64,000 nucleotides of DNA from Cupriavidus oxalaticus. GTDB taxonomy: Bacteria; Pseudomonadota; Gammaproteobacteria; Burkholderiales; Burkholderiaceae. A model generated the notes under the pieces. That model did not search any database, was not told where the DNA came from, and worked only from the letters and a program-made list of their open reading frames with translations. Location of the stretch: the NCBI RefSeq assembly GCF_016894385.1, contig NZ_CP069812.1, forward strand, positions 868,001-932,000, given 5' to 3'. The position numbers and the translations under genes are program-made. Positions 39,476 to 56,928 of this stretch are shown one piece after another (positions within the stretch are counted from its first letter, which is position 1; every line of letters starts with the position of its first letter).

Positions 39476-40378
39476 GTGATCAAGTGGATAATCGTCGCGG
39501 GCTACCTCGGTGCCATCCTGTATGTGCACTTCCGCGGCAAGGTAAGGCTGAAGATCTGGCGCCAGCTGCTGGACCATTCGGCGCTGGTCGCGCCGATCAA
39601 CTGCTTCATGTACGCGTTCTCGGGCGTGCCGCGCACGCCATATATCCCGGTCGATCGTTTCCCGGACCTGGAGAAGCTGCGCGCCGCGTGGCCGGAGATC
39701 CGCGACGAAGGCCTGGCGCTGGCCGCGATGCGCAAGATCAAGGCCGCGGACAAGAACGACGACGCCGGCTTCAATTCGTTCTTCAAGTACGGCTGGAAGC
39801 GCTTCTACCTGAAGTGGTACGAGGCCCAGCACCCGTCCGCCGAAGTGCTGTGCCCCAAGACCGTGGCGCTGCTGCGCGAGCTGCCGAGCGTGAAGGCCGC
39901 GATGTTCGCCGAGCTGCCGCCGGGCGGCAAGCTCAATCCGCACCGCGACCCGTTCGCCGGCTCGCTGCGCTACCACCTGGGCTTGTCCACGCCCAACGAT
40001 GACCGCTGCTTCATCGAGGTCGACGGCGAGCGCCACAGCTGGCGCGACGGCGAGGGCGTGGTGTTCGACGAGACCTACCTGCACTGGGCCGAGAACCGCA
40101 GCGACGCCAACCGGCTGATCCTGTTCTGCGATATCGAGCGGCCGATGCGCTATGGCTGGGCCGCCAGGTTCAACCACTGGATGGGCCGCAAGGTCATGAC
40201 CGCGGCCAGCTCGCCCAACGACGAGCACGACCAGACCGGCATGATCAACAAGCTGTTCCGCTTTGTCTGGCTGGGCGGGCAATATCGCCGCCGCTTCAAG
40301 GCGTGGAACCGCCAGCTGTACTACGTGGCGAAGTTCGGGCTGATCGTGGGGGGCGTGGCGCTGGTCATCTTCCTGTAG
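39476..40378 (+). CDS. lpxO: Aspartyl/asparaginyl beta-hydroxylase family, LpxO-like lipid A hydroxylase
   Basis: A 300-residue Fe(II)/2-oxoglutarate enzyme anchored by an N-terminal membrane helix (IIVAGYLGAILYVHF) and ending in another hydrophobic segment. It has HRDPFAGSLRYHLGL (His-x-Asp plus family block) and HWAENRSDANRLILFCD. LpxO hydroxylates secondary acyl chains of lipid A at the inner membrane. The GTG start at 39476 has AGGAGG upstream. The terminator that once followed it was split by a MITE insertion. Confidence 0.88.
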   Translation: MIKWIIVAGYLGAILYVHFRGKVRLKIWRQLLDHSALVAPINCFMYAFSGVPRTPYIPVDRFPDLEKLRAAWPEIRDEGLALAAMRKIKAADKNDDAGFNSFFKYGWKRFYLKWYEAQHPSAEVLCPKTVALLRELPSVKAAMFAELPPGGKLNPHRDPFAGSLRYHLGLSTPNDDRCFIEVDGERHSWRDGEGVVFDETYLHWAENRSDANRLILFCDIERPMRYGWAARFNHWMGRKVMTAASSPNDEHDQTGMINKLFRFVWLGGQYRRRFKAWNRQLYYVAKFGLIVGGVALVIFL

Positions 40379-40403
40379 TACGCGATGTCATCAGCAAAAG
40401 AGC

Positions 40404-40551
40404 CGGCGCAAGCCGTAATACCGTTCAGTTAATGCATCAAGCACCACTGTCATTCCCGCGCAGGCGGGAATCCAGCGTCTTTTGAAGTCACTGGGTTCCC
40501 GCCTTCGCGGGAACGACAGTGGTTAACTGAACAGCATTACGGCGCAAGCCG
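40404..40551 (+). mobile_element. MITE-like element 1 (124 bp) with 12-bp target duplication in a terminator loop
   Basis: The element is 40416-40539. The left end TAATACCGTTCAGTTAA and the right end TTAACTGAACAGCATTA are near-perfect inverted repeats. Inside are two dRS3-like hairpins, ATTCCCGCGCAGGCGGGAAT (40452-40471) and GTTCCCGCCTTCGCGGGAAC (40495-40514). CGGCGCAAGCCG is duplicated on both sides (40404-40415, 40540-40551). Removing the element and one copy restores the hairpin AAAAGAGCCGGC-GCAA-GCCGGCTCTTTT, so the insertion is at the apex of a bidirectional terminator between lpxO and the cyclase gene. It encodes no protein. Confidence 0.9.
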
Positions 40552-40572
40552 GCTCTTTTGCGTCGGGTTGCT

Positions 40573-42084
40573 TCAGTTCTCGCGCCGACGCTCCTTGCCC
40601 AGCGCCTCGTAGTGCGCGCGCTTGGCTTCGTACATGCGGCTGTCGGCCACCTTGACCGCGTCGGTGAGGCGCTCGCCCTGCACGCAGGTGGCGTGGCCGA
40701 TGGAAAAGCTCAGGCGCACGCCGGGATAGAAGGTGTTGTTCAGCTCGACCACCTTTTCGATCTGCTCGACCACCGTGGCGGCGCCGCGCTCGTCGCGGCC
40801 GGGCAGCAGCACCATGAATTCGTCGCCGCCGATGCGCGCCACGCAGGCCTGCTCGCCCACCGCCTTCTTCAGCACCTCGCCGGTGCGGCGCAGCAGGCCA
40901 TCGCCGTCGCCGTGGCCGAACTGGTCGTTGACCACCTTGAGCCCGTTCAGGTCCACCGCCACCACGCTGACCGGCCACGGGCCCTTGCGGCCCAGCCGCG
41001 ACAGTTCGTCTTCGTAGTAGGCGCGGTTGTAGAGCTTGGTCAGCACGTCGTGCTTGCCCAGGAATTCAACATAGGCCTCGGCCTTCTTGCGCGCGGTGAT
41101 ATCGGTCAGCGACACCAGCACCTGGTCCCAGTCGGCCTCGCAGCCGGGGAAGACCGACCACTGCATGAAGACGTCGACCTGGCGGCCGTCGAGCGCGTAG
41201 TTGATGACCTCGCGCTGCTGCCACAGCTTTTCGTGCCAGAGGTCGATCAGCTGCTCGGCGAAATGGATGCGCATGTCGTCGCGGAACACGTCGCCCAGGC
41301 GCGACAGCAGGATCTCCCTGGACTCGGCGCCGAACATCAGCAGCGTCTGCCGGTTGACGTCGAGCACGCGGATCTCCTGCATGCAGCGCGAGACGAAGTC
41401 CGGATGCACGTTGAGGAAGGTGCGGAAGTCGGTGATGCCGGCCGCGCGCACTTCATCGAGCAGCACCTTGACCGCGCTGAAGTCTTCCACCCACAGCGAC
41501 ACCGGCGAGTGCTCGAACAGGCCGACGGCGTATTGCTCGCTGCGGCGCAAGTCGCGTTCGGTGCGCGCGCGCGCGGTGATGTCCTCGATCGACAGCAGCA
41601 CGCGCTCCCATGTGCCTTCATGGCCGGGCATCACCGTGGCTTCGAGCCGGATGTCGAGGCGTTCGCCGTCCAGCGTGTAGTTGACGGTCTGGCTGGCGAA
41701 GCGGTTGGCGCCGTCCCAGAGCTGGCCGAGTTCTTCCACGTGCTGGTCGAACATGTCGTCGCGGAAGACCGTCTCGAGGTTGGCGACGAGGTCGTCGAGG
41801 TCGGCCGCATGGAACAGGTCGAGCGTGCGCTGGTTGACGTCGATCACGCGGATCAGCGACGAACACTGCGCCACCTGGTGCGGATTGGCGCGCAGGTAGG
41901 CGCGCAGGTCGGTGACCCCGTCGCGGCGCAGTTGTTCGAAATGCACCCGCACGTCGCTGAAGTCTTCCAGCCACAGTGACACGGGGGCGAGTCGGAACAG
42001 CGTCCGGTAATCGTCGAGGCTGTTGTCCGGCCCGGTGCCGACAGGGCGGTTGCGCGATGCCGCGGATAGACTGCTCAAGGCCAC
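40573..42084 (-). CDS. Diguanylate cyclase with duplicated PAS-like sensory domains
   Basis: A 503-residue protein with two homologous PAS-type modules (both contain APVSLW or SPVSLWVEDFS, then VFRDDM, then ITAR) and a C-terminal GGDEF domain with the intact active site RIGGDEF. No RxxD inhibitory site is seen five residues upstream, so product feedback may be absent. The GTG at 42084 has AAAGGAGA upstream and is preferred over an ATG at 42171. No membrane helices: a cytoplasmic c-di-GMP synthase. Confidence 0.9.
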   Translation of the reverse strand: MALSSLSAASRNRPVGTGPDNSLDDYRTLFRLAPVSLWLEDFSDVRVHFEQLRRDGVTDLRAYLRANPHQVAQCSSLIRVIDVNQRTLDLFHAADLDDLVANLETVFRDDMFDQHVEELGQLWDGANRFASQTVNYTLDGERLDIRLEATVMPGHEGTWERVLLSIEDITARARTERDLRRSEQYAVGLFEHSPVSLWVEDFSAVKVLLDEVRAAGITDFRTFLNVHPDFVSRCMQEIRVLDVNRQTLLMFGAESREILLSRLGDVFRDDMRIHFAEQLIDLWHEKLWQQREVINYALDGRQVDVFMQWSVFPGCEADWDQVLVSLTDITARKKAEAYVEFLGKHDVLTKLYNRAYYEDELSRLGRKGPWPVSVVAVDLNGLKVVNDQFGHGDGDGLLRRTGEVLKKAVGEQACVARIGGDEFMVLLPGRDERGAATVVEQIEKVVELNNTFYPGVRLSFSIGHATCVQGERLTDAVKVADSRMYEAKRAHYEALGKERRREN

Positions 42085-42280
42085 TCTCCTTTGTTCTTGT
42101 TCCCGTCTGGTGGCGGGGCCTGGCAGCGTTTCCGGGAACCAGCCGGGGCCAAGGCCGCCGCGCCAGCGCATTAGGATAGGCGAGGCGGCGCCAAATGGGG
42201 CAAACGGGGCGTAAAAAGCAGGTCAATCCGGTCGCGCGGTCGCGCGCGTGTTGCAAAAATGCGCGTGGCCCCGCGCGCGG

Positions 42281-43717
42281 CTAGCCGGCCAGGCGGTGCA
42301 CAATGCCGGCCAGCGTGGCCAGTGCCCGCTCGATCTGCGCCGAGCGCGGCGTGCCGCAGTTGATGCGCAGGCAATGGTCGAAGCGCCCGGCGTTGGAGAA
42401 CATCACCCCGGGCATCACGCGGATGCCAGCCTGCAGCGCCTGGTCGAACACCGCCTCGGACGATACCTGCGCGGGCATCTCGACCCACAGGTGCATGCCG
42501 CCGCGCGGCGCACCCAGCCGTGTGCCCGCCGGAAAGCTGGCCGCCACCGCCTGCGCGAACCATTCGCGCTGCAGCTGCAGCCGCGTGCGCAGACGGCGCA
42601 GGTGCCGTTCATGCGCGCCGCTGGCGAGGAAGTCCGCCGCGGCCATCTGCGACAGCATCTCGTTGGGCCGCGACAGCCCGAACTTGAGCATTTCGACGCG
42701 CGGCTGCCATTTGCCGGCAGCGATCCAGCCGAGCCGCATGCCCGGCGCCAGCACCTTGTGCAGCGAGGCGCAGTGGATCACGTTGCCGCTGCCATCCCAG
42801 GCCTTGGCCGCCGCCGGCTGGGTATCGCCGTCGGCGGTGGCGGAGAAGCAGTCGTCCTCGATCAGCGCGATGCCGCGCGCCTCGCACCACTGCACCAGCC
42901 GCGCCTTGTGCGCGTCCGGCATGATGCAGCCGAGCGGGTTCTGCAGGTTGGGCACCACCGCCACCGCGCGGATATTGTCGTAGTGCTGCGCCGCCAGCTC
43001 GAGCGCCTCGAGCGAGATCCCGGTCTGCGGGCTGCACGGGATTTCCAGCGCGCGCATGCCGAGGCTTTCGAGGATCTGCAGCAGGCCGTAGTAGGTGGGA
43101 GACTCCACCGCGATCACGTCGCCCGGGCCGGCCACCGCGCGCAACGCCAGGTTGAGCGCCTCGGTGCAGCCGTGCGTGATGACGATCTCCTCCGGCGCCA
43201 GCTGCATCCGCGCGTGCAGCGCCTGGCGCGCGATGGCGCCGCGCAGCGGCGCATGGCCTTCCGGCTCGACCGCCTCGGCGAACAGCATCGGATGCCGGCG
43301 CAGGGCGCGCGCCGCGGCGCCGCGCAGCGCATCGGCGGGATAGAGCGAGGGCGCGCAGTAGGCACCGCCCAGGTTGGTATGGACATGCTGGTGCTGGCTG
43401 CGGGCCAGCAGTCCCGAAATGCGCTGGTGGATGCCGACGTACTGCGCGGGGTCGGGCAGCGCGGCGTCGGGTTCGGTCAGCGGTGCCAGCGGCGCGCGCA
43501 GCGGCGCCGAAACAAAATAGCCGGCGCGCGGACGGGCTTCGAGCAGGCCGTCGCTCTCCAGCTGGCGGCAGGCCTGCAGCGCCGTGGACAGGCTGACGCC
43601 GTGCAGTCCCATCAGCGCGCGCACGGACGGCATGCGGTCGCCGGCGGTCAGCGTGCCGGATTCGATGGCGCGGCGGTAGTGGCCGGCAACCTGGCGGTAG
43701 AGCGGGGTGGATTCCAT
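42281..43717 (-). CDS. MocR/PdxR-type GntR-aminotransferase regulator
   Basis: A 478-residue regulator with a GntR winged helix at the N-terminus (STPLYRQVAGHYRRAIESG, RMPSVRALMGLHGVSLST) and an aminotransferase-like domain carrying PLP Lys321 (CASLHKVLAPGMRLGW) and VVPNLQNPLGCIM. It is divergent from a DUF2917-like gene; the 175-bp gap between the two starts holds the likely promoters. Its target and effector are unknown. Confidence 0.92.
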   Translation of the reverse strand: MESTPLYRQVAGHYRRAIESGTLTAGDRMPSVRALMGLHGVSLSTALQACRQLESDGLLEARPRAGYFVSAPLRAPLAPLTEPDAALPDPAQYVGIHQRISGLLARSQHQHVHTNLGGAYCAPSLYPADALRGAAARALRRHPMLFAEAVEPEGHAPLRGAIARQALHARMQLAPEEIVITHGCTEALNLALRAVAGPGDVIAVESPTYYGLLQILESLGMRALEIPCSPQTGISLEALELAAQHYDNIRAVAVVPNLQNPLGCIMPDAHKARLVQWCEARGIALIEDDCFSATADGDTQPAAAKAWDGSGNVIHCASLHKVLAPGMRLGWIAAGKWQPRVEMLKFGLSRPNEMLSQMAAADFLASGAHERHLRRLRTRLQLQREWFAQAVAASFPAGTRLGAPRGGMHLWVEMPAQVSSEAVFDQALQAGIRVMPGVMFSNAGRFDHCLRINCGTPRSAQIERALATLAGIVHRLAG

Positions 43718-43892
43718 GGCGGCATGGTGGCGCGGTTGGCCATCGGGGTACAGATACAGAGGCGGGGCGCCTGTATCGTAACAGTCCCGATTTTGTCCTG
43801 CTGTTCCGGTAGAGGTTGCGCGGGGATGTGCCTGCCGCTTGCTGGGGCCCGCCGATAGGCTGGAGGCCTGAATCTGTTACCGGAGCCAAGCC

Positions 43893-44282
43893 ATGCCAAG
43901 CGTATCGATCGACACTTCAGGGCGCGTCTTGCCGGCGTCCGCCACGCGCCTGTCCGCCGGACAATGCCTGCAGCTGTGCGTGCCGGCCGGCACGGTGCTG
44001 CATGCCGGCGCCGGCCGGATCGAGGTCAGCGGGCCGCCGCAATGGCTGGCCGAAAGCTGGCACGTCCCGCGCTGGCGCCTGCGCGCGGGCGAGACGCTGG
44101 CCATACCGGCGCGTGGCTGGCTGCAGGTCGTGGCGCGCGGCGACGCCGCCTTCACCATCGCCATGCCGCTCGGCGTGATCGACCGCCTGGCGGGCCTGCT
44201 GGCGTGGCGCAGGCGCCGCGTGCCGTCGCCATGGCGGCACCGGCCGCAACCGATTGCCGACCCGGCGCCGGAAAAACTATAA
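43893..44282 (+). CDS. DUF2917-like small protein
   Basis: A 129-residue protein, probably a small all-beta barrel (LSAGQCLQLCVPAGTVLHAG, RLRAGETLAIPARGWLQVVA, FTIAMP) with a basic tail RRRRVPSPWRHR. I assign it tentatively to DUF2917. GGAG lies upstream of the ATG. It is divergent from a MocR gene, and such pairs are frequent in this lineage. Confidence 0.72.
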   Translation: MPSVSIDTSGRVLPASATRLSAGQCLQLCVPAGTVLHAGAGRIEVSGPPQWLAESWHVPRWRLRAGETLAIPARGWLQVVARGDAAFTIAMPLGVIDRLAGLLAWRRRRVPSPWRHRPQPIADPAPEKL

Positions 44283-44349
44283 AATTGCGCTCCGGCCGGC
44301 CTGGCACATTGGTGTGCCCAACCCCCCGGCCGCAGTTCCCGGGTTCCCC

Positions 44350-45975
44350 ATGCTACGTCTAAGTGAAGTCAAACTCCCGCTCGACCATACCGAAGCCGAC
44401 CTGGACGCCGCCGTGCGTGCCGGCGCCGCGCAGATCGGCGTCAAGGGAGACGGCCTGATCGGCTATACCGTATTCCGCCGCGCCCACGATGCGCGCAAGC
44501 GCTCCGATATCAAGCTGACCTACATCATCGATCTCGAAGTCAGCGACGAAGCCGCGGCGCGCAAGCGCATGGCCGGCAAGCCCAACTGGAGCGTGACGCC
44601 CGACATGGAGTACCACTTCGTCGCGCGCGCCCCGCAGGGCGGGCCCGCGCTGCGCCCGGTGGTGATCGGCATGGGCCCGTGCGGGCTGCTCGCCGGCCTG
44701 ATCCTGGCGCAGTCGGGCTTCCGCCCGATCGTGCTGGAGCGCGGCAAGGAAGTGCGCGAGCGCACCAAGGACACGTTCGGCCTGTGGCGCAAGAGCGTGC
44801 TCAACCCGGAGTCGAACGTGCAGTTCGGCGAAGGCGGCGCGGGCACGTTCTCGGACGGCAAGCTGTACAGCCAGATCAAGGACCCGAAGCACTACGGGCG
44901 CAAGGTGCTGAACGAGTTCGTGCGCGCCGGCGCGCCGGAAGACATCCTGTACAAGGCGCGCCCGCATATCGGCACCTTCCGCCTGGTCAGCATGGTCGAG
45001 AAGATGCGCGCCGAGATCATCGAGCTGGGCGGCGAGATCCGCTTCGAGACCCGCGTCGACGATATCGAAATCGATGGCGGCCGGGTGCGCGGCCTGAAGC
45101 TGTCCAACGGCGAATACCTCGAGGCCGACCACGTCATCATGGCGGTGGGCCACAGCGCGCGCGACACCTTCCAGATGCTGCACGAGCGCGGCGTGTTCAT
45201 GGAGGCCAAGCCGTTTTCGCTGGGCTTCCGCATCGAGCATCCGCAGGGGCTGATCAACCGCAGCCGCTTCGGCAAGTTCGCCGGCAACAAGCTGCTGGGC
45301 GCCGCCGACTACAAGGTGGTGCACCATTGCAGCAACGGGCGTTCGGTGTACAGCTTCTGCATGTGCCCGGGCGGCACGGTGGTGGCGGCGGCGTCGGAGC
45401 CGGGGCGCGTGGTCACCAACGGCATGAGCCAGTACAAGCGCGCCGAGCGCAATGCCAACGCCGGCATCGTGGTCGGGATCACGCCGGACGACTATCCGGG
45501 CGGCCCGCTGGCCGGCATCGAGTTCCAGCGCAAGTGGGAAGAGCGCGCGTTCGAGCTGGGCGGCAGCAACTACAACGCGCCGGGCCAGCTGGTGGGCGAC
45601 TTTATCGCCGGCCGTGCGTCGACGTCGCTGGGCTCGGTCGAGCCTTCGTACAAGCCGGGCGTGACGCCGACCGACCTGAGCACGTCGCTGCCAGACTACG
45701 TGATCGAGGCGATCCGCGAAGGCATTCCGGAGATCGACAAGAAGCTGCCGGGCTTCGCGCTGCATGACGCGGTGCTGACCGGCGTGGAGACGCGCACCTC
45801 GTCGCCGCTGCGCATCCGCCGCAACAACGACGATTACCAGAGCATCAATGTCAGGGGCCTGTACCCGGCGGGCGAGGGCGCGGGCTATGCCGGCGGCATC
45901 TACTCGGCCGCGATCGATGGCATCGAGGTCGCTGAAGCGGTGGCGCTCAGCATCGTCGGCGGCAAGCAGGCTTAG
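44350..45975 (+). CDS. FAD-dependent dehydrogenase family protein
   Basis: A 541-residue flavoprotein. After an N-terminal small domain of about 100 residues (LRLSEVKLPLDHTEADLDAA) comes a dinucleotide-binding site VVIGMGPCGLLAGLILAQSG, then a conserved VQFGEGGAGTFSDGKLYSQI block and the C-terminal GLYPAGEGAGYAGGI. This matches the large family often labelled 'NAD(P)/FAD-dependent oxidoreductase, uncharacterised'. Substrate is unknown. It overlaps the convergent HI0933-like gene by 4 bases at the stop codons. Confidence 0.9.
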   Translation: MLRLSEVKLPLDHTEADLDAAVRAGAAQIGVKGDGLIGYTVFRRAHDARKRSDIKLTYIIDLEVSDEAAARKRMAGKPNWSVTPDMEYHFVARAPQGGPALRPVVIGMGPCGLLAGLILAQSGFRPIVLERGKEVRERTKDTFGLWRKSVLNPESNVQFGEGGAGTFSDGKLYSQIKDPKHYGRKVLNEFVRAGAPEDILYKARPHIGTFRLVSMVEKMRAEIIELGGEIRFETRVDDIEIDGGRVRGLKLSNGEYLEADHVIMAVGHSARDTFQMLHERGVFMEAKPFSLGFRIEHPQGLINRSRFGKFAGNKLLGAADYKVVHHCSNGRSVYSFCMCPGGTVVAAASEPGRVVTNGMSQYKRAERNANAGIVVGITPDDYPGGPLAGIEFQRKWEERAFELGGSNYNAPGQLVGDFIAGRASTSLGSVEPSYKPGVTPTDLSTSLPDYVIEAIREGIPEIDKKLPGFALHDAVLTGVETRTSSPLRIRRNNDDYQSINVRGLYPAGEGAGYAGGIYSAAIDGIEVAEAVALSIVGGKQA

Positions 45976-47246
45976 GTTTGCCTCAGATACGCCGCGGCGC
46001 CCAGCGCCGCGGTGCGTCCGCTGGCGAAGCAGGCCGTCAGCAGGTAGCCGCCGGTGGGCGCTTCCCAGTCCAGCATTTCGCCCGCGCAGAACACGCCGGG
46101 CAGGGCGCGCAGCATCAGCCGTTCATCCATCGCTTCGAAACGCACGCCGCCGGCGCTGCTGATGACCTCGTCAATCGGCCGCGGGCGCAGCAGGCGCAGC
46201 GGCAGCGCCTTGAGCGATACGGCCAGCGTGCCGGGATCCTGCATCGCATCTTTCGCCAGGCATTCGCGCAGCAGTCCGGCCTTGACGCCGGTGATGCCGA
46301 GCCGGCTCTGCAGGTGGCTGGACAGCGAACGCGACCCGCGCGGATGGTTCACTGCGTTGCCGACCTGTTCCGCGGTGTGCGAGGGCAGCAGGTCGAGGTG
46401 GATCACCGCGCTGCCATCGGCTTCGATCCGGTCGCGGATCGGCGCCGACAGCGCATAGACCACGCTGCCTTCGATGCCGGTGGCGCTGATGACGAACTCG
46501 CCCTGGCGGTAGTGTGCGTTGCCGTCGCGATCGGTCAATGCGATCGCCACCGGCTTGACCGGCGTGCCGGCGAAACGGTCGGCAAACGATTCGCTCCATG
46601 CCGCATCGAAACCGCAGTTGGCGGGACGCAGCGGTGCGACATCGACGCCACGCTCCGTCAGCCGCGGCACCCACGCGCCATCCGATCCCAGCCGCGCCCA
46701 GCTTGCGCCGCCGAGCGCCAGCACCACGGCACGTGCGGACACGGATGCTTCGCCCTGCGGCGTGGCAAAACGCAGCGTATGCGGCGCGCCCTCATGACAG
46801 TCCAGCCAGTCCAGCCAGCGATGGCGCATATGGAACTGCACGCCGGCCTCGCGCAACCGGTGCAGCCACGCGCGCAACATCGGCGCGGCCTTCATGTCGG
46901 TCGGGAAAACGCGGCCCGAGCTGCCGACGAAGGTGTCGATGCCAAGCCCGTGCACCCACTCGCGCAGCGCCTGCGGGCCGAAGTCCCCAAGCATCGGCGC
47001 GATCTGCGCGGCACGGTCGCCATAGCGGCCGAGGAAGGCGGGTTCCGGCTCGGCATGCGTGAGGTTCATGCCGCCCTTGCCGGCCATCAGGAACTTGCGC
47101 CCGACCGACGGCATCGCGTCATAGACCGCCACGCTGAGGCCTTGCGCCACCAGTACCTCGGCCGCCATCAGCCCGGCCGGGCCGCCGCCGATGATTGCCA
47201 CGTCGGGGCGGTTGGAAAGCGAAGGGGAAGGATTGGCGAGGGACAT
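45972..47246 (-). CDS. HI0933/YhiN-family flavoprotein
   Basis: A 424-residue FAD protein with VAIIGGGPAGLMAAEVL near residue 16, the family block GRKFLMAGKGGMNLTHAE and the C-terminal GVFCAGEMLDWEAPTGGYLL. The biochemical role of these proteins is mostly unknown; related BaiN proteins reduce steroid-type double bonds. The gene shares its stop region with the convergent FAD gene. Confidence 0.92.
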   Translation of the reverse strand: MSLANPSPSLSNRPDVAIIGGGPAGLMAAEVLVAQGLSVAVYDAMPSVGRKFLMAGKGGMNLTHAEPEPAFLGRYGDRAAQIAPMLGDFGPQALREWVHGLGIDTFVGSSGRVFPTDMKAAPMLRAWLHRLREAGVQFHMRHRWLDWLDCHEGAPHTLRFATPQGEASVSARAVVLALGGASWARLGSDGAWVPRLTERGVDVAPLRPANCGFDAAWSESFADRFAGTPVKPVAIALTDRDGNAHYRQGEFVISATGIEGSVVYALSAPIRDRIEADGSAVIHLDLLPSHTAEQVGNAVNHPRGSRSLSSHLQSRLGITGVKAGLLRECLAKDAMQDPGTLAVSLKALPLRLLRPRPIDEVISSAGGVRFEAMDERLMLRALPGVFCAGEMLDWEAPTGGYLLTACFASGRTAALGAAAYLRQT

Positions 47247-47333
47247 TGGCGGTCGGGCGAGGGCAGGGTGTTTCCGCGCGGATTATAGAGCCTGCGGCAG
47301 CGCTAGAATGACGGTTTCCCCCGTATTGCCATC

Positions 47334-47948
47334 ATGTCTTCCGCCGCCACTTCCGCAGCCGCCGCAGATTCCGTTATCGCCGCCACCCGCCACTGGCTGG
47401 AACGCGCGGTGATCGGCCTGAACCTGTGCCCCTTTGCCAAGAGCGTCTATGTGAAGGAGCAGGTGCGCTACGTGGTCAGCACGGCGACCGAAGCGCCGGA
47501 TGTGCTGGATGAGCTTGAGCGCGAGCTCCGCCTGCTCGATGAGACGGATCCGGCGGAGATCGACACCACGCTGCTGATCCTGCCCCGCGCGGTGGCCGAT
47601 TTCCTCGACTACAACGACCTGCTGTACTTCGCCGACCGCCTGCTCGGCAGCCTGGGCCTGGCAGGCACGCTGCAGATCGCCAGCTTCCATCCGCAGTACC
47701 AGTTTGCCGATAGCGAGCCGGACGATATCGAGAACTACACCAACCGCGCACCGTATCCGATCCTGCACTTGCTGCGCGAGGACAGCATCGCGCGCGCGGC
47801 GGCGGCCTTCCCGGATGCGGCGGATATCTACGAGCGCAACCAGGCGACCATGCGCCGCCTGGGGCATGCGGGCTGGCGCCGTGTGATGGCGGGCGAGGAC
47901 GAAGCCGAAGACAAGGCCACCGGCAAAAACCCGCTCCCGAAAGACTAA
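47334..47948 (+). CDS. DUF1415 family protein whose stop codon comes from a mobile element
   Basis: A 204-residue cytosolic protein with the DUF1415 hallmark GLNLCPFAKSVYVKEQVRYVV and SFHPQYQFAD. Function unknown. It ends ..LPKD-TAA, where TAA is the first three bases of MITE-like element 2. The ancestral stop TGA is still present at 48082-48084, after the second target copy. The protein sequence was therefore unchanged by the insertion. Confidence 0.92.
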   Translation: MSSAATSAAAADSVIAATRHWLERAVIGLNLCPFAKSVYVKEQVRYVVSTATEAPDVLDELERELRLLDETDPAEIDTTLLILPRAVADFLDYNDLLYFADRLLGSLGLAGTLQIASFHPQYQFADSEPDDIENYTNRAPYPILHLLREDSIARAAAAFPDAADIYERNQATMRRLGHAGWRRVMAGEDEAEDKATGKNPLPKD

Positions 47949-48081
47949 TGCCGTTCAGTTAGCCGCCGTCGTTCCCGCGAAGGCGGGAACCCAGTGACTT
48001 CAAAAGACGCTGGATTCCCGCCTGCGCGGGAATGACGGTGGGGCTTGATCCCTTAACTGAACGGCATTACCCCCGAAAGAC
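47934..48081 (-). mobile_element. MITE-like element 2 (124 bp) inserted exactly at a stop codon
   Basis: The element is 47946-48069, the same length as element 1 but in the opposite orientation. Ends are TAATGCCGTTCAGTTAG and TTAACTGAACGGCATTA. Target copies CTCCCGAAAGAC (47934-47945) and CCCCCGAAAGAC (48070-48081) match at 11 of 12 positions. It contains the same two dRS3-like hairpins. It separates two convergent genes whose stop codons were originally one base apart. Confidence 0.9.
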
Positions 48082-48085
48082 TGAC

Positions 48086-48952
48086 TTACGCTGGCTCGGC
48101 CGGCGTGACCGGCGTGACCGAAACCGGAGCGGTGAAGAAGCGCTCGTTCATCTCTTCCAGCCCCAGCGTTTCCAGCACGTTCTGCAGCCGCTCCGCCGGG
48201 CGCCGGCGCGGCAGGTCCTTGTACTGGGCGATGATGAGCTCGTTCTTCATCGAGTGCTCCCATCCCACCAGCTCGGTCACGCTGACCTGGTAGCCATGCG
48301 CCTCCAGCTGCAGGCAGCGCAGCACATTGGTCACCTGGCTGCCGAATTCGCGCGTATGCAGCGGATGGCGCCAGATCTCGGTCAGCGGATTGCCCGCCAG
48401 CAGCTTGCCCTTGTGCTTGCGCAGCACGCTGGCCACTTCGGCCTGGCAGCAGGGCACCAGCACGATGTGCTGCGCGCGCTTGGCCAGCGCGAAGCGGATG
48501 GCGTCGTCGGTGGCGGTATTGCACGCATGCAGCGCGGTGACCACGTCGACGGTCGGCGGCAGCTGCGGCGAGGTGATCGAGTCCGCCACCGACAGGTTCA
48601 GGAACGACATCCCGGGAAAGCCCAGCCGCGCTGCCAGCGCCTGCGAGGTCTTCACCAGTTCCTCGCGCGTCTCGATGCCGTAGATATGGGAGTCGTCCTT
48701 CAAAGCCTTGAAGAACAGGTCATACAGGATGAAACCGAGGTACGACTTGCCGGCGCCGTGGTCGACCAGCGTGACGCGGCCGCGCTCATCCTTGACCTGC
48801 TGCAGCAGCGGCTCGATGAACTGGAACAGGTGGTAGACCTGCTTGAGCTTGCGCCGGCTGTCCTGGTTCATCTTGCCGTCGCGCGTCAGGATATGGAGTT
48901 CCTTGAGCAGCTCGAGGGACTGGCCGGGGCGGATTTCGTGGGTATTTGACAT
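48086..48952 (-). CDS. Class I SAM-dependent methyltransferase-like protein
   Basis: A 288-residue protein with the SAM-binding block LVDHGAGKSYLGFILYD near residue 60, DVVTALHACNTATDDAIRFA and VPCCQAEVA, which together resemble the Methyltransf_32 (PF13679-type) domain. The double Cys after VP is typical of that family. The ATG at 48952 (MSNTHEIRPGQSLELL) is preferred over one at 49063. The substrate, RNA or protein, is unknown. Confidence 0.85.
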   Translation of the reverse strand: MSNTHEIRPGQSLELLKELHILTRDGKMNQDSRRKLKQVYHLFQFIEPLLQQVKDERGRVTLVDHGAGKSYLGFILYDLFFKALKDDSHIYGIETREELVKTSQALAARLGFPGMSFLNLSVADSITSPQLPPTVDVVTALHACNTATDDAIRFALAKRAQHIVLVPCCQAEVASVLRKHKGKLLAGNPLTEIWRHPLHTREFGSQVTNVLRCLQLEAHGYQVSVTELVGWEHSMKNELIIAQYKDLPRRRPAERLQNVLETLGLEEMNERFFTAPVSVTPVTPAEPA

Positions 48953-49192
48953 GAGGACTGCACAGGCTGCGGGACGCGGCGCGCCCCGGAAATGCCGATA
49001 GTTTACCGAAGTTCCGGCCCACCCCCACCTCGGCAGGGGGCGTTGTGCGCTCAAGTTTCGCAACCACGCTGCCGATGGTCATGGATCGATAACAAGTGGA
49101 GCGCCAGCCGCCCGGGCCTGCGCTGTCCGCCAGCGCGGGCAGGCTGCCGTGGCCGATCGGCATGCAGCTCCGCACCAAATGTCAGGGGACTC

Positions 49193-50806
49193 ATGATGCA
49201 CGAGTCGGGTTTGCGCCTGGAGCTGACCGAGCCAGGCGAGCAGGTGCATGCGCGCTACGTACCGGAGCCAGGCAGGCTGGCGCCGGATCATGCCAGCCTG
49301 AAACAGTGCCTGGACCGCCAGGGCTGGGCCGGCGCCAGGCTGGATGCACGCGCTGTCGCGCAGTTCCTGCAGCAATGCCAGCGCGCCGAACATGAAATCG
49401 ACGCCGCTATCGGTGTACTGGTCGATGGCGCGTTCGAACTCGATATCACGAACGACGGCCTGGCCGTGCGGCTCACGCTGATGCCCGCCGAAGGCGGCCG
49501 CCCGGTCACGCAGGACGATATCCGCCGCGCCGTCGCCGAGCGCGGCGTGGTGCCGCCGCTCCAGGCGCTGGCGCTCGACGCCGCGCTGGCCGAAGGCCGC
49601 TGCGAGCTGCGCACCATTGCCGCCGGCGTCGCGCCGCGCCAGGGCGAGCCGGCGCGCTTCCTCAACCTGCTGCAGCCGCGCAAGCCGGCGCAGGCCGATG
49701 AAGGCGATTCGCGCGTCGACCTGCGCGACCTTGGCAACCTGCTGCTGGTCAGCCCCGGCACGCCGCTGATGCGCCGCGTCCCGGCGGTGCCCGGCCATGA
49801 CGGCGTGGACGTGTTCGGCAAGCCCATTACCGCCGATCCCATGGACGATCCACCCTTTGCCGAGGGCCTGACCGGTGCCGCCGCCGATCCCGACGACCCT
49901 GACCTGCTGGTCGCCGTGATCGCCGGCGCGCCGGTGGTCGGCGTGCATGGCATTGCGGTGAGCCCGGTGGTGCAGGTGGAGGCAGTCGACCTGCATTCGG
50001 GCAACGTTGCCTTTGACGGCACGCTGCGCGTGGCGGGCGATATCCGTACCGGGATGTCGGTGCGCGTCAGCGGCGACGTGCTGGTCGAAGGCACCATCGA
50101 AGCCGCCGACATCGACGCCGGCGGCAATGTCGTGGTCAGGGGCGGCATCATCGGCAAGGCCGAGACCGGCCGTTCCGACGGCGGCATCAGCCGCGCCAGC
50201 GTGCGCTGCAAGGGCGCGGTCAAGGCGCGCTTCATCGAGAATGCCGTGGTCGAGGCCGGCACCGAGGTGAACGTCGACAGCGGCATCCGCCAGAGCGACG
50301 TTGCCGCGGGCGAGCGCATCGTGGTCGGCGGCCCCGGCGTGCAGGGCAGCATCAGCGGCGGGCGCACGCGCGCCATGCTGGCGGTGCGCGCCGCGGTGCT
50401 CGGCAGCCCTGCCGGCAGTGCCACCAACGTGCAGGTGGGCTTGAACCCTTACGCGGACGCGCAACGTGCCGCGCTCGAGGCCGACCGCCGCAGGCTGCTG
50501 GAAGAGCAGAACAAGGTCAAGCAACTGGTCGCGTTCTTTGCCGCGCATCCGGAGAAGGCCGTCGGCGACCTGCGCGAGAAGGCGCGCGCGACGCTGTTCA
50601 AGCTGTCGCGCGACCTGTTCGAGCTGGAAGGGCGCCTGGCCGAACTGGGCCAGCAAATGCAGCCATCGGCCGATGCCGTGATCGACGCCGCGCGCCGCAT
50701 CCATGGCGGCGTCACGCTGCAGGTGGGCAGCCGCGTGCTCAAGGTGATGGAAGACAAGCCTGGTGGGCAGATCCGCCTGGTCGAGGACCGTATTGCCGTG
50801 ACCTGA
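49193..50806 (+). CDS. FapA family protein (DUF342)
   Basis: A 537-residue protein. After a less conserved N-terminal part comes PGTPLMRRVPAVPGHDGVDVFGKPI, then a right-handed beta-helix region rich in Gly/Val repeats (VRVSGDVLVEGTIEAADIDA and GGNVVVRGGIIGKAE), and a C-terminal coiled coil (EADRRRLLEEQNKVKQLVAFF). FapA-like polymer-associated proteins bind nucleic acids or membranes and are often found with motility genes; none are here. Start is at the first of two consecutive ATGs, with AGGGGA upstream. Confidence 0.85.
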   Translation: MMHESGLRLELTEPGEQVHARYVPEPGRLAPDHASLKQCLDRQGWAGARLDARAVAQFLQQCQRAEHEIDAAIGVLVDGAFELDITNDGLAVRLTLMPAEGGRPVTQDDIRRAVAERGVVPPLQALALDAALAEGRCELRTIAAGVAPRQGEPARFLNLLQPRKPAQADEGDSRVDLRDLGNLLLVSPGTPLMRRVPAVPGHDGVDVFGKPITADPMDDPPFAEGLTGAAADPDDPDLLVAVIAGAPVVGVHGIAVSPVVQVEAVDLHSGNVAFDGTLRVAGDIRTGMSVRVSGDVLVEGTIEAADIDAGGNVVVRGGIIGKAETGRSDGGISRASVRCKGAVKARFIENAVVEAGTEVNVDSGIRQSDVAAGERIVVGGPGVQGSISGGRTRAMLAVRAAVLGSPAGSATNVQVGLNPYADAQRAALEADRRRLLEEQNKVKQLVAFFAAHPEKAVGDLREKARATLFKLSRDLFELEGRLAELGQQMQPSADAVIDAARRIHGGVTLQVGSRVLKVMEDKPGGQIRLVEDRIAVT

Positions 50807-50833
50807 CGGCGACCTTCCCCGCTCCCGAATTTG

Positions 50834-51000
50834 TACTATCCTGCAGGTATGTCCTGGGGTGCCGCAGGATGGGCGAGAGAGCTAGTTTCGGGCAGTGAAT
50901 GCAGAAGCGGACCAGCAAACTGTGGAAGCGTTACACGGAACCGAATCACGTGGCACTTGAGATACCGGAAGGCCAGCCAATGCGGCTGGCCTTCCTCTTT
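50834..51000 (+). ncRNA. Possible small RNA or 3' UTR ending in a terminator
   Basis: The 264-bp gap after the FapA-like gene has a TACTAT -10-like box (50834-50839), a hairpin ATCCTGC/GCAGGAT (50838-50870) and about 100 nt later a strong terminator. No ORF fits. It might be an independent short transcript or only the 3' UTR of the upstream gene. Confidence 0.3.
50967..51000 (+). terminator. Intrinsic terminator
   Basis: A 12-bp stem GGAAGGCCAGCC against GGCTGGCCTTCC with an AATGC loop, followed by CTCTTTT. Confidence 0.9.
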
Positions 51001-51070
51001 TGCACGCACGTGCATCGCGCGCGATCCGACCTACACTGAAGGTGCAACCAGTCTCTCACAGGAGGTTGCC

Positions 51071-51226
51071 ATGACTGCCGCACTGATCACGGCACTGGCG
51101 CTGATCGCTCTGGTCGCCTGCGCCGCCATTGTCATCTGGATCCTGCGCGAGAAGAACCCGACGCTGCTGCAGCAGCAGGAGCAGTCGGTGCGCACATGGT
51201 TCGACCATATGATCCACCGCCACTAG
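51071..51226 (+). CDS. Small single-pass membrane protein
   Basis: A 51-residue protein: a short N-terminus, one hydrophobic helix (ALITALALIALVACAAIVIW) and a polar C-terminal tail (LREKNPTLLQQQEQSVRTWF). AGGAGG precedes the ATG. No known family. It lies alone, with a terminator upstream and a former terminator just downstream that now carries MITE-like element 3. Confidence 0.7.
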   Translation: MTAALITALALIALVACAAIVIWILREKNPTLLQQQEQSVRTWFDHMIHRH

Positions 51227-51265
51227 CGGCTGCACCGCCGCCTGACGGTACGTGCCGCATGAGCC

Positions 51266-51433
51266 CGCCGTGCAGGCTAATGCCGTTCAGTTAACCACCG
51301 TCGTTCCCGCGTAGGCGGGAACCCAGCGACTTTTTGTCCCCCATCGGGGGGCTTTAAGACGCTGGATTCCCGCCTGCGCGGGAATGACAGTAGTGATTGA
51401 TACCTTAACTGAACGGTATTACGCCGTGCAGGC
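51266..51433 (-). mobile_element. MITE-like element 3 (144 bp) with 12-bp target duplication in a terminator loop
   Basis: The element is 51278-51421, with ends TAATGCCGTTCAGTTAA and TTAACTGAACGGTATTA. CGCCGTGCAGGC is duplicated perfectly (51266-51277, 51422-51433). It has the two dRS3-like hairpins plus a third, central hairpin (CCCCCATCGGGGGG) that accounts for its 20 extra bases. Removing it rebuilds GAGCCCGCC-GTGCA-GGCGGGCTTTTT, an intrinsic terminator serving the small membrane gene. Confidence 0.9.
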
Positions 51434-51455
51434 GGGCTTTTTCGTGGCGCCGGCC

Positions 51456-52586
51456 CTATGGCACGTCTCCTGCTGCCGACATGTGCAGTTCGTGCAGCCC
51501 GCTGCGCTCGACACGCGTGCCGAGCGCGCGTCCTTCGTAGGCGAACATCGCCAGCAGCCATGCGATGTCGACTTCACCCGCATATTCGAGACGGAAATGG
51601 CTGCGCCGCAGCGGCACCAGCCGCAGGTCTGCGTTGCCTGCCGCATCGAAGCTGACGAACACCATCAGCGCCAGGTCCGGCCGATAGTCGTCGTAGCCGC
51701 CGATGCCCTCGTAGTCGTTGATGAAGTCGCCACAGCCGTAGAGGATGGGTTTGCCCGCATGCAGCTCGATGCCGAGTGGATGGTGCGAGGAATGTCCATG
51801 CACGATATCCACGCCGGCCCGTTCCACCAGCCGGTGCGCGAAGGCGCGTTGCGCCGGATCGATATGGTAGCCCCAGTTGGCACCCCAATGGATCGATGCC
51901 ACCACGAGGTCGCCGGCACGCCTGTCCTTGCCGATCCGCGCGGCAATGCGGTCGCACGAGGCGGCGGACCAGTCATCCAGCAGGTTTACGCCGGAGTGGC
52001 CGGCGGTGGCGCGCCATGCCGCCGGCGTGCCGCAGTTGTGCATGGCGAAGGCGAACACCGCGATGCGGCCGGCCTGGCCGCCCGGCCGCGGCAGCCACGC
52101 GGGCTGCATCGCGCTGTCCTCGTCGGGGCCGGCACCGGCGTGCGCAATCTGCGCAGCATCGAGCGCCGCCAGCGTATCGGCCAGGCCCGCACGTCCCCAG
52201 TCGAGCACATGGTTGTTCGCCAGTGATACGCAGTCGATGCATGCCGCCTGCAGGCAATCGACATTGTCCGGATGCATGCGGTAATGCACGGCCTTGCCGG
52301 GCCAGGCGTCGTCGCTGGTGGTGATCGCCGTTTCCAGGTTGGCAATGCGCGGCCATGCGCCGCGGCGGTCGAGTTCCGCGAGCGCGTCGCCCCACGGATA
52401 CGCCGGCGCCACCGGGCGCGCCATCGGGCCCGCCTTGCGCTCGGCCAGGCGCACGTAGTCGAGCGCCGAATGCACATATGACTCATGCAGCAACGGCTCG
52501 CTGGGATGCGCCAGGATCTGGTCGATGCCGCGCCCGGTCATCACATCGCCACACAGGAACAGGGGAGGGGGGCTGGTTGTGTCCAT
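51456..52586 (-). CDS. CapA family protein (metallophosphoesterase-like)
   Basis: A 376-residue protein of the CapA/PgsA family, related to poly-gamma-glutamate capsule proteins. It has the start block LFLCGDVMTGRGID, ANLETAITTSDDAW, SLANNHVLDWGRAGL, IHWGANWG and VDIVHGHSSHHPLG. The histidines, asparagine and aspartates form the calcineurin-like metal site. No capsule genes are adjacent, so the role is open. I start it at the ATG at 52586; an in-frame start up to 52703 is possible. No signal peptide is visible. Confidence 0.87.
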   Translation of the reverse strand: MDTTSPPPLFLCGDVMTGRGIDQILAHPSEPLLHESYVHSALDYVRLAERKAGPMARPVAPAYPWGDALAELDRRGAWPRIANLETAITTSDDAWPGKAVHYRMHPDNVDCLQAACIDCVSLANNHVLDWGRAGLADTLAALDAAQIAHAGAGPDEDSAMQPAWLPRPGGQAGRIAVFAFAMHNCGTPAAWRATAGHSGVNLLDDWSAASCDRIAARIGKDRRAGDLVVASIHWGANWGYHIDPAQRAFAHRLVERAGVDIVHGHSSHHPLGIELHAGKPILYGCGDFINDYEGIGGYDDYRPDLALMVFVSFDAAGNADLRLVPLRRSHFRLEYAGEVDIAWLLAMFAYEGRALGTRVERSGLHELHMSAAGDVP

Positions 52587-56833: not shown

Positions 56834-56928
56834 CGTCGTTCCCGCGAAGGCGGGAGCCCAGTGACGTTTCGTCCCCTCACCGAGGGGGCTTAAAAGACGC
56901 TGGATTCCCGCCTTCGCGGGAATGACAG
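56834..56928 (-). repeat. Hairpin core related to the MITE-like elements, without terminal repeats
   Basis: Starts with CGTCGTTCCCGCGAAGGCGG and ends with ATTCCCGCCTTCGCGGGAAT plus GACAG, with a central CCCCTCACCGAGGGG-type hairpin as in element 3. The TAATRCCGTTCAGTTAA ends are absent on both sides. It lies between tRNA-Thr and the end of fbp. Confidence 0.85.

Follow-up and report, generated by a model that had tools for sequence, protein, structure and literature searches.

The window, the whole 64,000-nucleotide stretch of Cupriavidus oxalaticus DNA that we analyzed, contains three short repeats whose reported positions and lengths in the initial annotation hold to the base: W1 (40416..40539) and W2 (47946..48069), both exactly 124 bp, and W3 (51278..51421), 144 bp. 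W1, assigned by convention to the minus strand, is oriented opposite to W2 and W3 on the plus strand. All six termini match the 17-bp inverted end TAATRCCGTTCAGTTAA, with 0, 1, 1, 0, 0 and 0 mismatches; shuffled windows yield a mean of 0.01 end matches at up to 3 mismatches, and no fourth pair of ends occurs in the window at that threshold. The 12-bp direct repeats reported at the borders are likewise present, perfect at W1 (CGGCGCAAGCCG, 40404..40415 and 40540..40551) and W3 (CGCCGTGCAGGC, 51266..51277 and 51422..51433) and 11/12 identical at W2 (47934..47945 and 48070..48081). At W1 and W3 the left repeat belongs to a terminator-like hairpin split by the element, and at W2 it comprises the last codons of a plus-strand open frame (47334-47948). 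The first three bases of W2, TAA, are the present stop codon of that frame.

An inverted REP pair between IS4-type ends

The two hairpins originally noted inside each copy are TTCCCGC-N4-GCGGGAA palindromes, at 40453..40470 and 40496..40513 in W1, 47972..47989 and 48015..48032 in W2, and 51304..51321 and 51367..51384 in W3, where an additional, third hairpin separates the two units. These palindromes are the cores of an inverted pair of CGTC-1 REPs, the class known as dRS3 in Neisseria. One unit reads CGTC-ATTCCCGC-GAAG-GCGGGAAT-CCA, with the CGTC tag, 8-bp stem, 4-base loop and CCA tail of the class, and its partner has G-C as the first stem pair. In the sections of Di Nocera et al. (2013, PMC3733652) that describe CGTC REPs, CGTC-1 stems start almost invariably with A-T, inverted partners are unequal as they are here, and C. 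taiwanensis is among the recorded hosts. Those sections report no association with transposase genes, whereas here the inverted pair is enclosed by IS4-type ends and 12-bp duplications; the nearest precedent they offer is a set of H. neapolitanus CGTC-1 dimers within 41-bp palindromes. On contig C1, 27 of 65 perfect REP palindromes fall outside end-bearing elements. Decayed IS4-type ends adjoin a few of these outside palindromes (L140, L145, L152).

The initial annotation recognized no named family in the ends, which are in fact of the IS4-subgroup type: TAATGCCGTTCAGTTAA agrees with the pattern -AATR--------WTW (Table 1 of PMC2266710), which the portions of De Palmenaer et al. (2008, PMC2266710) that define this subgroup of the IS4 family list together with direct repeats of 10-13 bp, a range that includes the MITE duplications. 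The two ends of E. coli IS4 depart from the 17-mer by 1 and 2 mismatches, the element makes a 12-bp duplication in MG1655, and the E. coli copies read share an A/T-armed target with the elements described here. The window elements differ from IS4-subgroup members in being too short for a transposase and in carrying REP hairpins. A scan of 40200-51700 against Rfam gave nothing at gathering scores, and the W3 stretch had no match among phage sequences. Six plasmid records match the W1 stretch, three from Cupriavidus, two from Neisseria and one from Photobacterium, the Neisseria and Photobacterium matches covering part of the W1 query only.

A mobile family and its full-length relatives

The 17-bp end recurs across the genome, with 38 + 37 matches when as many as 2 mismatches are allowed and 0 + 0 for a reversed control sequence, so that the proposed genome-wide search does recover a family. 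Ends are paired at 34 of the 42 places examined (up to 4 mismatches per end), delimiting elements of 80-201 bp, and 33 of these 34 are flanked by a target duplication of 11-13 bp, which is perfect at 15 of them and carries 1-3 mismatches at 18 and which measures 12 bp in 27 cases, 11 bp in 1 and 13 bp in 5; the remaining element, L014, lacks a duplication and was left out, giving 33 elements for analysis. Short, with paired terminal inverted repeats and no room for a transposase, the elements are MITEs. They share these repeats, their shortness and the target duplication with the classical bacterial MITEs characterized in the relevant sections of PMC10969869, but differ from them in having a known REP repeat as interior and no recognizable remnant of a parent IS.

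Movement is borne out by empty sites, which the initial annotation had proposed to seek in sister strains. The comparison covered W1, W2 and W3 of the 34 paired copies, and at all three loci sister Cupriavidus genomes carry an empty site with a single copy of the 12-bp target; the two flanks share an overlap of precisely 12 bp in 3/6 relatives for W1, 2/6 for W2 and 4/6 for W3.

An IS with the same terminal repeats, also suggested as something to look for, exists in other Cupriavidus genomes. Complete-length elements there measure 1,408-1,417 bp, have 0-1 end mismatches and are bordered by 12-13 bp duplications; the 17-bp ends of a 1,409-bp IS are identical to those of the MITE. Complete copies in three genomes (G019, G020, G025) contain 442-aa open frames, and the transposase of the 1,409-bp G025 element combines Nterm_IS4 and DDE_Tnp_1 domains with a YREK motif, YKRRWEIETSYRELK. 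A DDE transposase with YREK and a size within about 1,400-1,650 bp place this IS in the IS4 subgroup, and the earlier suggestion of an IS4-type enzyme is upheld. Beyond the terminal 17-20 bp, no long stretch is common to the tested MITE and the complete IS. A 191-bp element in another genome (G015) resembles an internal-deletion derivative of a full-length IS4-type element.

Searches of the C. oxalaticus genome itself brought up no IS4-subgroup transposase, and the helper enzyme is therefore inferred. The PF13006 profile has no match there and PF01609 has 11. Ends were read for three of these 11, all copies of one element with a 457-aa open frame and ends CATCTCGTTATACA; this element is not the parent. 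One of its copies sits inside a one-REP MITE copy whose left end is no longer recognizable.

A/T arms and hairpins at the target

The predicted IS4-like 12-bp duplication length fits the IS4 subgroup; what the initial annotation missed, besides the closeness of the ends to those of E. coli IS4 and the CGTC-1 identity of the REP pair, is the nature of the targets, which conform to AAA-N20-TTT and in many cases coincide with the axis of a hairpin resembling an intrinsic terminator. AAA-N20-TTT is the target consensus of E. coli IS4. The term AAAN20TTT itself was not met in the literature searched.

We scored the arms with a measure devised after inspecting the same 33 MITE targets, for which the full-length IS and E. 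coli sets serve as independent tests. A score of at least 5 was reached at 19/33 MITE sites, 27/28 IS sites and, among the matches listed, 12/12 distinct E. coli IS4 sites, against 0.5% of positions in the C. oxalaticus genome and 1,711/49,910 positions in E. coli. The IS set derives from 72 loci. Of these, 25 had no end pair, 10 lacked a duplication and 2 were at the edge of a contig; five duplicate sites were also left out, together with L062 and L068, which had 10 end mismatches, duplications of 10 bp, arm scores of 4 and 1 and hairpin scores of 2 and 3. The E. coli sample, drawn from 5,360 IS4 places, comprised MG1655 and 18 of 50 listed rows, apparent repeats of the K-12 site being passed over, and 7 of its 19 copies repeat an already counted site, leaving 12.

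A strong hairpin is centered on the cut axis at 13/33 MITEs, 25/28 distinct full-length relatives and 6/12 distinct E. coli IS4 sites (among the matches listed), compared with 2% of C. oxalaticus positions; the IS sites, from other hosts, are set against these own-genome controls only. It is missing at 20/33 MITE targets, W2 included, and was seen at only 2 of the 11 paired MITEs read in other Cupriavidus genomes; among MITEs with perfect duplications, 9/15 have one. A simple scan for terminators around the empty sites of one relative gave 4 sites, where shuffled sequences gave 5.2, and its list included neither the W1 nor the W3 hairpin; hairpins were scored at the target axis in its place.

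We found no statement that IS4-type elements target terminators in the literature searched, which was mostly without subscription journals and is weak evidence of novelty. The word "terminator" is absent from the main text of PMC2266710, and the sections of PMC9330008 consulted contain nothing on such targeting. A related behavior is described in the pertinent part of Tobes and Pareja (2006, PMC1525189) for ISRm22, an IS4-family element that inserts in REP sequences of Sinorhizobium meliloti. Insertion at a palindrome axis is common to both cases, but ISRm22 targets REPs and duplicates 6 bp, whereas the targets here are A/T-armed, often terminator-like hairpins and the duplication is 12 bp.

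Proposed transposition by an IS4-type helper and the choice of target

We consider it highly likely (probability about 0.88) that the repeats are MITEs with IS4-subgroup ends and a REP-pair interior, moved by an IS4-subgroup transposase into A/T-armed targets, preferably terminator hairpins. Terminal repeats of 17-20 bp bracket the inverted CGTC-1 REP pair in an element too short for a transposase, and a complete IS, formerly present in the lineage and presumably since lost from it, would have supplied the DDE enzyme in trans. This enzyme would have bound the MITE termini and transposed the element into its target with a 12-bp stagger. It would read the target through an A-tract and a T-tract about 20 bp apart, with a strong added preference for arms flanking a GC hairpin centered on the cut, that is, for intrinsic terminators at the ends of genes, which are often bidirectional. 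Landing in its loop, the element would leave the terminator functional; termination after insertion was assessed by folding in silico.

Could the REPs themselves be the mobile units, copied in clusters by a RAYT, a Y1 tyrosine transposase, with the IS4-like ends incidental? The occurrence of same-type palindromes apart from IS4-type ends, some beside decayed ones, would fit, and we nevertheless judge this highly improbable: it is the IS4 ends, not the REPs, that set the element borders and the position of the duplications, the genome holds a single Y1 transposase match (PF01797) with no REP of this type in the 3.3-kb locus around it, and the CGTC sections of PMC3733652 give no transposase association.

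How the target is chosen leaves more room for argument. The A/T arms alone might decide, terminators simply being common among runs of A and T so spaced in a GC-rich genome. The arms are indeed the most constant feature: each of the 12 distinct E. coli IS4 sites read has them, even the two that fall within genes (yicI and ygeA), against a strong hairpin at half of the 12, and strong hairpins are absent from all 14 MITE targets whose arm score is at most 4. We nonetheless regard this explanation as rather unlikely, since arm-matched intergenic controls have a hairpin in only 45/894 cases in the C. oxalaticus genome, against 13/19 of the targets with arm scores of at least 5, and in 11/247 in E. 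coli, against 6/12 IS4 sites. Less probable again is an absence of any terminator targeting, with selection having purged insertions elsewhere and left terminators as harmless havens. The elements do occur at gene ends: where both flanks could be called (12/33 elements), 8 lie between convergent genes, 4 between co-directional and 0 between divergent ones, against 33/186 convergent pairs in the background. Harmlessness by itself would, however, permit any intergenic position, whereas 25/28 IS sites are cut within one base of the hairpin axis at a fixed spacing to the arms, and E. coli IS4 is found within yicI and ygeA.

The preferred reading of A/T-armed targets with a hairpin preference can be extended to a more tentative proposal, which we hold at slightly less than even odds: that IS4-subgroup transposases land on intrinsic terminators, recognizing A-arm, hairpin and T-arm and cutting at the axis, so that with the element in the terminator loop both neighboring genes would keep a terminator, and that CGTC REP dimers have been carried through Cupriavidus as passengers enclosed by IS4-type ends.

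These results give one class of REP a concrete route of movement, a point left open by the 2013 REP paper in its treatment of the class (PMC3733652), and make the long-known insertion sequence IS4 a testable example of a terminator-seeking transposon. Terminators are targets that many genes have at their ends, and hits there may be of little cost to the host; should termination survive insertion, this would account for the build-up of elements between convergent genes.

Family size, structure and movement

MITEs and IS4 ends are already known. Three MITE copies lie in the window, at 40416-40539 (minus strand by convention, W1), 47946-48069 (plus strand, W2) and 51278-51421 (plus strand, W3), and the initial annotation's description of them is correct to the base. 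Its reading of them as members of one family was borne out across the C. oxalaticus genome (G000; 6.69 Mb in two contigs, with the window at C2:868001-932000), where a search for the 17-bp end with at most two mismatches gave 38 forward and 37 reverse matches and a reversed control gave none. We examined 42 places, 39 of them fetched in addition to the three window copies: ends are paired at 34, and a single recognisable end is present at the remaining 8. The paired elements comprise nine of 80-82 bp, 14 of 124 bp, seven of 140-146 bp, three of 157 bp and one of 201 bp, and at L022 an 81-bp copy is nested within a longer one. A target duplication is present in 33 of the 34, with a best length of 12 bp in 27, 13 bp in five and 11 bp in one, and with no mismatch in 15, one in nine, two in six and three in three. 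The 124-bp copies with a duplication (n = 13) differ from their nearest neighbours by 1 to 10 bases, so that movement appears to have been partly fairly recent and partly old. The 124- and 81-bp classes differ by 43 bp, the same distance as separates the two REP palindromes, so the short form probably arose by deletion from palindrome to palindrome.

Some copies carry insertions of their own. Among the one-ended places, L051 (G000:C1:2255700-2258300) holds a one-REP copy interrupted, with a 9-bp duplication, by an IS that has a PF01609 transposase, a 457-aa open frame, ends CATCTCGTTATACA and two further copies in the genome. In three MITE copies from two genomes (L022 and L039 in C. oxalaticus, L230 in G049), a REP unit is interrupted by some 60 bp of inserted sequence, similar in the three and containing several short hairpins.

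When the region was aligned to 60 genomes of the genus, the best-matching relatives broke off at the element borders. The mobility proposed in the initial annotation is upheld by a full reading of six relatives: an exact 12-bp overlap of the left and right flanks is seen in three of them at W1, in two at W2 and in four at W3; in the other combinations of relative and locus the flanks aligned only partly or lay further apart. Inspected sequence from four of the six has a single target copy and no element. In one relative, G025 (93-99% identical in the flanks), all three window sites are empty, yet a complete IS is present.

REP hairpins in the interior

According to Di Nocera et al. (PMC3733652), a CGTC-1 REP has the tag CGTC, an 8-bp stem, a 4-base loop and a CCA tail, a description that both interior hairpins of the MITE fit. 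In that paper dRS3 is the CGTC-1 of Neisseria, which makes the initial annotation's term "dRS3-like" apt; C. taiwanensis is also listed there as a carrier. On contig C1, 38 of the 65 perfect palindromes lie within elements having IS4-type ends and 27 outside, some element borders in this tally being estimated; among 20 places read that lack such ends, a decayed end was seen at a few. Since the palindromes also occur outside IS4-type ends, the REP pair looks like an independent repeat caught between them. Only one match to a Y1 transposase was found in the genome, and its surroundings contain no such REP.

The window contains a fourth REP pair (56839-56922), whose first palindrome has one mismatch and whose units are separated by a hairpin; it has no IS4-type ends. 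The genome also carries a second end family, TTTCC-NN-AWTTCRCGACRA, with 5 + 4 matches at up to two mismatches (control 0) and facing pairs spanning 134-156 bp. The pairs are at G000:C1:1390122-1390277 (L147) and G000:C1:1437529-1437683 (L148), both with REP units between the ends, and at G000:C2:3489844-3489977 (L239). L145 combines a second-family left end with a decayed right end of IS4 type.

Target sites and gene context

Conserved target arms are known for the IS4 subgroup, and palindromic targets for the IS4 family, with ISRm22 in REPs, from PMC2266710 and PMC1525189, respectively. Aligned empty sites of the MITE have A 4-7 bases to the left of the duplication and T 4-7 bases to its right (AAA-N20-TTT), and both W1 and W3 interrupt a perfect terminator-like hairpin, that of W1 being AAAAGAGCCGGC-GCAA-GCCGGCTCTTTT. 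We scored arms from 0 to 8 and, on the axis of the cut, the number of hairpin pairs from 0 to 7, allowing an axis shift of at most one base, against a 464-kb background from the C. oxalaticus genome that included the window and had rough gene calls. Arms of at least 5 occur in 19 of 33 targets versus 0.5% of the background positions sampled (n = 65,644) and 1.1% of the intergenic positions (n = 10,613), and hairpins of 6 or 7 pairs in 13 of 33 versus 1.8% and 2.0%. Given arms of at least 5, the hairpin is found in 13 of 19 targets, compared with 45 of 894 intergenic positions (Fisher p about 1e-12) and 62 of 2,441 positions overall. Counting against a hairpin preference, 20 of the 33 targets lack a strong hairpin.

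These 33 sites themselves served to shape the arm score, so more weight falls on the sets from full-length IS and from E. coli. Seventy-two loci of full-length IS4-type elements, from Cupriavidus, other genomes of its bacterial family, one Duganella, one Rhodocyclales and two more betaproteobacterial assemblies, reduced to 30 distinct sites with a duplication and, once two with badly matching ends were dropped, to 28; arms are present in 27 and the hairpin in 25, the controls for this set being those from C. oxalaticus. For E. coli IS4 (2,739 records with a match), 19 copies read represent 12 distinct sites, all with arms and six with the hairpin; in a 50-kb control from MG1655, arms occur at 1,711 of 49,910 positions, and the hairpin accompanies them at 18 of these 1,711 overall and at 11 of 247 intergenic ones. 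Against the preference stand the MITEs of other Cupriavidus (15 places in five genomes), whose 11 paired elements, from four genomes, have arms in six and the hairpin in two, three of the 11 being without a good duplication. The literature searched, which lacked most subscription journals, yielded no paper linking the IS4 subgroup to intrinsic terminators and none describing CGTC REP pairs captured by IS4-type ends; an older report is quite possible for both.

For 12 of the 33 elements, gene calls were possible in both flanks; eight of the pairs are convergent, four co-directional and none divergent, an excess of convergent pairs over background (33 of 186; p 0.0002). At W2 (47934-47948), the terminal TAA of the MITE replaces the TGA stop that the upstream frame has in G025; no residue is added, and the last codon is GAC in both genomes. 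Folded as RNA, occupied W1 and W3 are predicted to retain the old hairpin stem as the base of one long element hairpin.

Insertion sequences with similar ends

IS4 of E. coli MG1655 has the ends TAATGCCGATCAGTTAA and TAATGCCAGTCAGTTAA and a 12-bp duplication. The IS4 transposase's N-terminal domain (PF13006) is present in nine of the 60 genus genomes; a search of the C. oxalaticus genome did not find it. An IS sharing the MITE's ends, for which the initial annotation had proposed looking, does exist in relatives: G019, G020, G025 and G030 carry complete-length elements of 1,408-1,417 bp with 0-1 mismatches to those ends. The elements of G019, G020 and G025 have a 442-aa open frame, which is interrupted in the G030 element and in a second G019 copy; both IS4 domains and the YREK motif are present in the transposase of G025. 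The right end of the G025 IS and one MITE copy (L018) have 20 outer bases in common, and no long interior stretch. In another relative, G015, a 191-bp element has two parts, one matching each end of several full-length IS4-type elements, the longer part with 69-78% identity to seven of eight compared; the element resembles such an IS with its interior deleted. Alongside the REP-carrying MITE, this deletion-like element indicates that the genus has MITEs of both kinds.
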